Part shown: positions 18,256-21,247 of the stretch, one piece after another
Layout of the letters: the number at the start of each line of letters is the position of its first letter
How positions within the stretch are numbered: the stretch's first letter is position 1
NCBI RefSeq assembly: GCF_000724625.1
Contig: NZ_CP007139.1
Span: 62,001-126,000 of the forward strand
Direction of reading: 5' to 3'
Origin: Fimbriimonas ginsengisoli Gsoil 348
GTDB lineage: Bacteria > Armatimonadota > Fimbriimonadia > Fimbriimonadales > Fimbriimonadaceae
Length of the DNA stretch: 64,000 nt
Notes under the pieces: generated by a model
What the model was told of the DNA's origin: nothing
The model's database searches: none
Seen by the model: the letters and a program-made list of their open reading frames with translations, nothing else
Made by a program: the position numbers and the translations under genes

Positions 18256-20145
18256 ATGGCGATGCCGATCCCGGCGATCGAGCTTCCTCCGAGTGCCGCC
18301 GCACGGCGCGACGAACTGTTCGAAATCAATCGCCAGGATCTGCAAAGACGCACCGACCGCCTTTTCGGCCTGGTCATGCTGCTCCAATACGTGGGCGGTG
18401 TGATCGCCGCCGCGATCCTCTCGCCTCGAACCTGGGACGGAGTCGGAACGGTGCACCCGCACCTCACGATGGCGCTGGTGCTCGGCCTGCTCATCGCTGC
18501 TCCCGTCTGGTTCCTCGCCGCTTTCTTCCCCGGATGCGATCCTAATCGCTTCATCATCGCCATCGCGCAGATGCTGATGTCGTGCCTGCTCATCCACATT
18601 TCGGGTGGGCGGATGGAAACCCATTTCCACGTCTTCGGATCCCTGGCATTCCTTGGCTTCTACCGTGACTGGCGGGTTCTGGTCCCCGCCGTCCTCGTCG
18701 TATTGGCCGACCACGCCTTGCGGGGCTACTTCATTCCCATGTCCGTTTATGGCATCCCCACCGGCGCGGAATGGCGCTTCCTGGAGCACGCCGGTTGGAT
18801 CCTCTTCTGCGCCGTATTCATCGGCGCCGCCTGCGTCCAGAGCCGTAAGGAAATGTACGCCGTCGCCGAGCGCCAAGCGCTGGTGGAAGAGACGAAGTCT
18901 CGAATCGAACACGTGGTTATCGACCGTACCCACGACCTTCGGGAGAGCGAAGCCCGCAAAACCGCGATCGTCGCCAGCGCCCTCGACGGAATCTTCGCTC
19001 TGGACGGAAGCGGCCGGATCACGGAAATGAACCCTTCCGCCATCGCGATCTTCGGCTTTGAAGATTCACAGACCCGCCATCCCCATATCGACAAGCTAAT
19101 CTCGCTGGAAGCCGGCCGCGGCTCCATTTTCGACGTTATGGCGGCGATCAAGGACCGCGCCGACGGCGAGGGGGTCCGGATGGAAGGGACCGGCTTTCGG
19201 CCGGACGGCGATTTCCCGATGGAAATCAGCATTAGCCCGGTCCACGTCTACGGCGAGGTGACCTTCACCGTGCTTGTCCGCGACGTTTCCGAGCGAAAAC
19301 GACTCGAGGCGAAAGTTTCCCACGGCGAAAAAATGGAAACGCTCGGGCGACTGGCCACCGGAATCGCCCACGAGATCAACACTCCAAATCAATTCATCGC
19401 CGACAACGTGCGGTTCCTGCAGGATTCATTCTCCGAACTGCAATCGCTCGTGGAGAGCTATCGGAAAATGGCGGCCGAAGCCCGCGCCGGCAGCGTCTCC
19501 GAGGAGACGCTGCGGGACGTCTCCGCTGCCGAAGCGCTCCACGACTTCGAATTCCTGAGCCACGAGATTCCCAATGCCAGCCGCGAGGCGCTGGAAGGAG
19601 TGGAGCGGGTCGGCGGGATCGTCAAGGCGATGAGGCAATTCTCCCACCCCGGCACGATGCGAAAGGAGCCGATCAACGTAAATGCCGTCGTCTCCGGCGC
19701 CCTCGCCGTAAGCCGGAACGAATGGAAAAACACCGCCAAACTCGAAGTGTGCCTCGAAGAGGAGATCCCCGATGTCCTCGGACATGCCGGTGATCTGGGG
19801 CAGGCTGTGCTCAACCTGGTGGTAAATGCGTGCCACGCCGTGCGCGAACGACATCAGGATGCGCGCATGGGGGTTCTCAAGATTAGTACAATGGCCGCCG
19901 GAGATACCGTAATGATCGAAATTGAAGACGACGGTTGCGGCATCCCGGCCAAGAATCTTAAAAAGGTCTTCGAGCCGTTCTTCACCACAAAAGGGGTCGG
20001 CATCGGCACCGGCCAAGGGCTCGCCCTCGTTCATCGCGCCGTCGTGGAGCTGATGGGCGGAGACGTGGAAGTTCATTCCGAGCCCGGACAGGGAACCCGA
20101 TTCACCCTTAGGTTCCCGGTTCCGGTAAGGGAGGCCGTCCATTAG
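18256..20145 (+). CDS. Membrane sensor histidine kinase with PAS domain
   Basis: A 629-residue kinase. Residues 36-190 form a multi-spanning sensor (about six segments) with GRMETHFHVF (118-127) and FYRDWR (135-140), a pattern known from some chemotaxis receptors and kinases. A coiled linker (195-235) and a PAS domain (235-350) follow. The phospho-acceptor is His372 in GIAHEINTPNQF, in a long HisKA region with an inserted helix. The HATPase has NLVVNACHA (N box), DDGCGIP (G1), FEPFFTTK (F box) and GTGQGLAL (G2). It sits between the CPC protein and the REC-HD-GYP regulator; all three overlap or abut. The partner is almost certainly that regulator. Confidence 0.92.
   Translation: MAMPIPAIELPPSAAARRDELFEINRQDLQRRTDRLFGLVMLLQYVGGVIAAAILSPRTWDGVGTVHPHLTMALVLGLLIAAPVWFLAAFFPGCDPNRFIIAIAQMLMSCLLIHISGGRMETHFHVFGSLAFLGFYRDWRVLVPAVLVVLADHALRGYFIPMSVYGIPTGAEWRFLEHAGWILFCAVFIGAACVQSRKEMYAVAERQALVEETKSRIEHVVIDRTHDLRESEARKTAIVASALDGIFALDGSGRITEMNPSAIAIFGFEDSQTRHPHIDKLISLEAGRGSIFDVMAAIKDRADGEGVRMEGTGFRPDGDFPMEISISPVHVYGEVTFTVLVRDVSERKRLEAKVSHGEKMETLGRLATGIAHEINTPNQFIADNVRFLQDSFSELQSLVESYRKMAAEARAGSVSEETLRDVSAAEALHDFEFLSHEIPNASREALEGVERVGGIVKAMRQFSHPGTMRKEPINVNAVVSGALAVSRNEWKNTAKLEVCLEEEIPDVLGHAGDLGQAVLNLVVNACHAVRERHQDARMGVLKISTMAAGDTVMIEIEDDGCGIPAKNLKKVFEPFFTTKGVGIGTGQGLALVHRAVVELMGGDVEVHSEPGQGTRFTLRFPVPVREAVH
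20127..20134 (+). promoter_or_regulatory. Shine-Dalgarno supporting an ATT start
   Basis: AAGGGAGG lies at the very end of the kinase gene and is followed by six bases and then ATT at 20141. No ATG, GTG or TTG occurs in this frame between the upstream in-frame stop (20126-20128) and 20189, so this site points to ATT as initiator of the response regulator. Confidence 0.7.
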
Positions 20146-21247
20146 GAAGATCCTCTTCGTCGACGACGAGCCCCGGGTTTTAGATGGAATGCGCCGCCAA
20201 ATGTGGGCGCTTCGCACCGAGTGGGAAGGAATCTACGTCCCCGATGCCGAAGTCGCCTGGGCGCGGCTCGAAGAAGGGCAGATCGACGCCGTCGTCTCCG
20301 ACCTTAACATGCCGGGCCGGAGCGGCATCGAGCTCTTGAAGAGCGTCCGGGAAAGCCCGCGATTCAAAGGACTCCCGTTCTTCCTGCTCACCGGAAACAG
20401 CGAAGTAATGTTTCGCCGCGTCTCGCTGGAAAGCGGCGCCACCGAGTACCTCGCCAAGCCGTGCGATTTCAAAGAGCTCACCGCCCGCCTGCGGAATGCC
20501 TTCGTCCTCAAGGATCTTCAAGACGAAATTAAAGCGGAAAAGTCGGACTTGGAGATTCGATTAGCCGACCGCAACCGCGACTTGGAGCGGGCCCAGCGCG
20601 AGCTGTTGTTCCGGTTGGCCAAAGCCGCCGAGGCGCGCGACGTGGAGGTCGGCAATCACATCGCCCGGGTCGGTGTCTTCTCGCGCATGCTGGCGGAGGA
20701 GATCGGGTTAGAGCCGGGTTTTCAACGCCGCATCCTCCTCACCAGCCCCCTGCACGACGTCGGTAAGATCGGAATCCCGGACAGCATCCTTCGGAAGCCA
20801 GGTCCGCTCGACCCCGAGGAGCGCCGGCTCATGGAAACCCACACGACGATCGGAGGCCAGATCTTGGCCGGCGAGCTTCCCCGCGTGCTCACCAGCCTCG
20901 AGAGCGACGAACCGGCCGCCGATTTCGAGTTCATCCACACCGCCGCCCGGATCGCCATGTCGCACCACGAGCGCTGGGACGGCAAAGGGTATCCGAACGG
21001 CATCGGCGGCGAAGAAATTCCGGTGGAGGCCCGCATTGTGTCGGTGGCCGACGTCTACGACGCCCTGCGGAACGCCCGGCCCTACAAAGGACCGGTTTCG
21101 CGCGAGAAAACGATGCAAATCATCTCCGAGGGCGCGGGCAGCCAGTTCGATACGAAGATCGTCGACGCATTCAAGGCGCGGATCGAAGAGCTCGAGACGA
21201 TGCTGGAATTTATGTCCGATGCCCAACCCGAGCCGGTCGCACAGTAA
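20141..21247 (+). CDS. Response regulator with HD-GYP domain, probable ATT start
   Basis: With ATT at 20141 as start the product is 368 residues and begins MRKILFVDDEPRVLDG. That restores the first strand and acidic pocket (D8, D9) of the receiver; the phospho-Asp is D54 (VVSDLNMPG) and the Lys is in LAKPCDF. The first ATG (20189) would delete that strand. A coiled linker joins the HD-GYP domain, with HDVGKIGIPD (HD at 205-206), HHERWDGKGYPNG (GYP near 283-285) and DVYDALRNARPYK, so cyclic-di-GMP phosphodiesterase activity is likely. The start overlaps the kinase stop. The linked kinase presumably controls it by phosphorylation. Confidence 0.9.
   Translation: MRKILFVDDEPRVLDGMRRQMWALRTEWEGIYVPDAEVAWARLEEGQIDAVVSDLNMPGRSGIELLKSVRESPRFKGLPFFLLTGNSEVMFRRVSLESGATEYLAKPCDFKELTARLRNAFVLKDLQDEIKAEKSDLEIRLADRNRDLERAQRELLFRLAKAAEARDVEVGNHIARVGVFSRMLAEEIGLEPGFQRRILLTSPLHDVGKIGIPDSILRKPGPLDPEERRLMETHTTIGGQILAGELPRVLTSLESDEPAADFEFIHTAARIAMSHHERWDGKGYPNGIGGEEIPVEARIVSVADVYDALRNARPYKGPVSREKTMQIISEGAGSQFDTKIVDAFKARIEELETMLEFMSDAQPEPVAQ

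Follow-up and report, generated by a model that had tools for sequence, protein, structure and literature searches.

A response regulator gene of the soil bacterium Fimbriimonas ginsengisoli Gsoil 348 appears to use a real ATT start codon that is interlocked with the stop codon of the histidine kinase gene in front of it, a reading to which we assign a probability of about 0.78. The gene pair lies in a stretch of 64,000 nucleotides of contig NZ_CP007139.1 (positions 62,001 to 126,000 of the forward strand), referred to here as the window. The original prediction had named this ATT as the likely start of a REC–HD-GYP regulator, and the claim is supported by orthologues, domain profiles and within-genome controls. 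AUU starts, control by initiation factor IF3 and termination–reinitiation are each already known, and no new mechanism is required. On the evidence of sequence comparison, what is new is a homology-backed candidate for AUU initiation in a gene that is not among the classic examples and encodes a two-component output protein, together with a putative AUU start in a −5 overlap, a configuration predicted earlier from codon arithmetic.

The kinase–regulator junction

The kinase contains the H-box HEINTP, as read in the sequence, and its open reading frame ends GTC CAT TAG (Table 1). After its in-frame TAA, the regulator frame reads GGG AGG CCG TCC ATT AGG AAG ATC CTC TTC GTC GAC GAC GAG, and reading the frame onwards to 20189 revealed no ATG, GTG or TTG. 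No canonical start is thus compatible with the conserved N-terminus. The predicted Shine–Dalgarno (SD) sequence six bases 5′ of the ATT proved exact to the base: adding 20,000 to each number, A127, A128, G129 and GGAGG (130–134) are followed by the spacer CCGTCC (135–140) and by ATT (141–143). Both 16S genes end CACCTCCTTA, giving the anti-SD ...ATCACCTCCTTA, with which GGAGG pairs perfectly; pairing continues through G129:U and A128:U. AGGGAGG stands at a proper spacing from an AUH codon. ATT and TAG have one base in common (20143), which confirms the prediction that the regulator start overlaps the kinase stop codon, and the resulting 5-base ATTAG is the kind of overlap or very short gap expected of termination–reinitiation pairs. 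RNA folding predicted for the region of the start did not go beyond that of shuffled sequences (z 0.30), a point against the proposed start.

Table 1. Features of the kinase–regulator junction and other loci with apparent non-canonical starts (window positions unless stated otherwise)
Feature	Position	Strand	Remarks
PAS sensor histidine kinase gene	18256..20145	+	TAG stop 20143-20145; HATPase_c 1.1e-25, PAS 8.2e-8
In-frame TAA of the regulator frame	20126..20128	+	Regulator start must be 3′ of this TAA
Shine–Dalgarno-like AAGGGAGG	20127..20134	+	Within the last kinase codons; anti-SD CCTCCTT in both 16S genes
ATT, proposed regulator start codon	20141..20143	+	Aligned with ATG/GTG of orthologues
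ATTAG, where regulator start and kinase stop form a −5 overlap	20141..20145	+	Sequence reading; PMC10666635
REC–HD-GYP response regulator, 368 aa, predicted c-di-GMP phosphodiesterase	20141..21247	+	Domain profiles, active-site residues
First canonical start, ATG	20189..20191	+	Would drop β-strand 1, D8 and D9
infC, focal genome (L133)	genome 4654636	−	Apparent ATA start
infC, congeners (L192, L193, L195, L197, L199, L200, L202, L203)			Apparent ATA start
infC, congener (L201)			Apparent ATT start
hemC, focal genome (L312)	1486-1530 of L312 (genome about 1004640)		ATC at the conserved place
hemC, congeners (L313, L314, L315)			ATC at the conserved place

Of 15,820 arbitrary codons that precede a first canonical start, 313 had GGAGG, AGGAG or GAGGT 4–9 bases ahead of them. 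Because about 2% of codons carry such a motif by chance, an SD in front of an ATT is weak evidence by itself, and we rejected SD strength as a stand-alone argument. The weight of the evidence for the proposed ATT start comes from homology. Translation from ATT gives the N-terminus RKILFVDDE and a complete REC profile (PF00072, 1.5e-18; positions 1–110), with D8, D9, D54, T84 and K106 all present, a set obtained only with this start. From the ATG at 20189, coverage shrinks to 29–110 and β-strand 1 is lost together with both Mg-binding aspartates. Both parts of the original prediction on this point were therefore borne out, namely that ATT restores the VDDE pocket and that the first ATG cuts off the first strand. 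The HD-GYP part (HD_5, 6.1e-30; best solved relative 4mcw, E 7.9e-44) has the HDxGK motif, the metal ligands and HHExxDGxGYP, including H205, D206, K209, H234, H275, H276 and D304. The regulator probably destroys cyclic-di-GMP as a predicted phosphodiesterase. Because all active-site residues of both domains are in place, the gene does not look like one in decay, and given the intact REC active site its N-terminus is expected to be translated.

Searches of relatives and of the family yielded orthologues in six genomes (L002, L003, L004, L005, L031 and L032), with 43–51% identity, each directly behind the same kind of kinase. They start with ATG, GTG, ATG, GTG, ATG and ATG, respectively, at the position of the ATT or 1–2 codons upstream in all six, and I4, D8 and D9 are invariant in the alignment. 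Five of the six have a 4-base ATGA or GTGA overlap, and in each of the six the stop lies at start+1, a phase other than that of ATTAG. In these searches the nearest orthologues stand at about 50% identity, and the want of closer ones counts against the ATT reading. A scan of genome contigs added 60 homologues of greater distance whose N-termini could be aligned; each has a canonical start within the open frame at or upstream of β-strand 1, and there was no second ATT case among them.

Apparent non-canonical starts in the genome and phylum

The genome (5.23 Mb, one contig, two 16S genes) gave 63 REC matches, and in each of the 40 other REC genes fetched from among them a canonical start precedes β-strand 1. 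Across 291 genomes of the phylum, a DNA pattern combining an SD, ATT and the REC first strand occurred once, at this locus; the same pattern with ATG occurred at 32 sites in 28 genomes, and a reversed-pattern control gave 0 occurrences. In a survey of 2.05 Mb of the genome, taken in stretches (39%, about 1,640 gene models), no other SD and ATT stood before clearly coding sequence that reached the first canonical start. The original prediction held ATT starts to be very rare outside infC and pcnB. Their rarity agrees with the literature, where infC is the classic example among the few non-canonical starts so far characterised (PMC5472188), but infC and pcnB no longer stand alone, as Staphylococcus aureus cvfC1 also starts with AUU (PMC13009471).

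Other genes of Fimbriimonas bear on the use of AUH codons in the genus. The apparent start of infC is ATA in the focal genome as well as in eight congeners, and ATT in a ninth, mostly behind GAGGTGA. hemC is without a canonical start before its conserved N-terminus. In the focal genome and in three congeners (separate assemblies) it has an ATC at one shared position, which suggests a conserved AUC start; GGAGG and 8 bases precede the codon in the three congeners, and an 8-base overlap with the upstream stop was seen in L312, L313 and L315. Two further candidates were dropped. rsmG (L298, genome about 4557093, minus strand) has no in-frame canonical start, and a TTG one base out of frame would give an N-terminus like that of its relatives; the pattern is suggestive of a frameshift near the start or of an indel in the assembly, which may therefore hold some indels. 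In a 1,677-aa open reading frame on the minus strand (L120 16266; genome 202266), GGAGG and 7 bases lead to an ATC that lies 10 codons before the first canonical start, and the N-terminal stretch is hydrophobic; it was set aside for want of a usable, close orthologue.

Probable origin and use of the ATT codon

NTG starts cannot form a −5 overlap, whereas ATT could form one with all three stop codons (Huber et al. 2023, PMC10666635). In 2.66 million gene pairs, −5 overlaps were more than 1,000 times rarer than −4 overlaps and were put down to annotation errors or to rare non-canonical starts such as ATT (PMC10666635). When single-base changes were scanned close to the junction, a G inserted between 20143 and 20144 gave CATTGAGG, with a TTG start, a TGA stop, a −4 overlap and an unchanged kinase protein. 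A single lost G would thus explain the phase, the start codon and the stop codon together: an ancestral −4 layout ATTGAGG (TTG start, TGA stop) would become ATTAGG (ATT start, TAG stop), leaving both proteins unchanged. We infer that the junction probably arose in this way from the −4 layout of the orthologues.

The same loss could instead be a sequencing error, the true sequence being CATTGAGGAAG, with a TTG start, a TGA kinase stop and a 4-base overlap. We consider this improbable, although it is the best of the competing explanations: one added base brings back both the layout and the phase of the orthologues, and the genome was read only by Roche 454 at 22× (PMC4072686). rsmG, moreover, looks like another indel near a start. 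On the other hand, 454 errors are mostly homopolymer miscounts and a lone G dropped at 22× is rare; in the single-base scan no homopolymer miscount near the junction gave a canonical start, and other non-canonical AUH starts occur in the genus. The original prediction had named a sequencing error at the ATT as its refutation. A lone T-for-G miscall at 20143 is an unlikely form of it, as it would abolish the kinase stop and lengthen the kinase by 54 codons, and the possible form in a 22× 454 assembly is the missing G between 20143 and 20144.

Less probable still is a damaged regulator gene, or a protein that begins at 20189 without the first strand and is active through its HD-GYP part alone. 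That ATG is indeed the first canonical start and the HD-GYP part is complete, but the REC active-site residues are all kept, an equivalent start is found in no orthologue and the coding signal extends up to the ATT. A hybrid kinase–regulator, through a base overcalled 5′ of 20143 or a +1 frameshift at CAT TAG G, is very improbable, even though 19 of the single-base deletions tried around the junction, 49 in all, join the two frames. The two genes are separate in all six orthologues, and chance would have had to supply the SD as well as an AUH codon precisely where the orthologues start; tRNA-His would slip poorly from CAT to ATT, and the spacing of the SD is unlike that of prfB.

If the ATT is the start, the AUU is most likely a weak one, fed by termination–reinitiation from the kinase. 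A ribosome ending the kinase at the UAG (20143) would sit over the AUU, held there by AAGGGAGG in the last kinase codons, which makes re-initiation the likely source of the regulator. Some of these ribosomes would re-initiate with fMet-tRNA to give fMet-RKILFVDDE, for which the expected N-terminal peptide is RKILFVDDEPR or MRKILFVDDEPR. If the AUU behaves like the starts of infC, sigR and the S. aureus genes, initiation would be weak and restrained by IF3; in E. coli, higher IF3 inhibits initiation at non-canonical codons (PMC2268962). In favour of an ATT start, AUU behind a strong SD in S. aureus reaches about 10% of AUG (PMC13009471); against it counts the figure of about 0.3% of AUG from a reporter in E. 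coli (Hecht et al., cited in PMC10666635). The outcome would be a low, kinase-tied amount of the predicted c-di-GMP phosphodiesterase. A more speculative extension, which we regard as unlikely, is that the AUU in a −5 overlap has been kept as a control device, with IF3 and kinase translation setting the amount of phosphodiesterase and with infC (AUA), hemC (AUC) and this AUU forming an IF3-sensed group.

Comparison with known systems

Gene finders limited to ATG, GTG and TTG would set the regulator start 16 codons late and yield a REC domain without its active-site aspartates. The locus is a homology-backed candidate for a −5 overlap gene pair and, together with infC and hemC, suggests Fimbriimonas as a promising genus for work on AUH starts.

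Among the closest parallels, infC, which encodes IF3 and starts with AUU in E. coli and AUA in S. aureus, likewise has an AUH start behind a good SD, and in the known cases its initiation is weak and IF3-sensitive; however, infC regulates itself, whereas the regulator gene encodes a two-component output and overlaps the gene of its kinase. sigR of Streptomyces, with a GTC start, is likewise a regulatory gene with a non-canonical start and a partner, and there the start codon sets stoichiometry and IF3 represses (PMC5472188). It differs in its codon and in being the first gene of its pair, whereas the Fimbriimonas regulator, with ATT, is the second and is known from sequence. S. aureus cvfC1 (AUU) and ccpN (AUA) share the combination of an AUH start and a strong SD, and a lowered yield was measured for them (PMC13009471); cvfC1 is the first gene of an operon, with a start conserved in its genus and supported by ribosome mapping. 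Finally, the ATGA and GTGA pairs with −4 overlaps have the same interlocking of stop and start, with re-initiation by the terminating ribosome expected (PMC10666635), whereas the −5 ATTAG of the regulator lies in the other phase, from which NTG starts are excluded.
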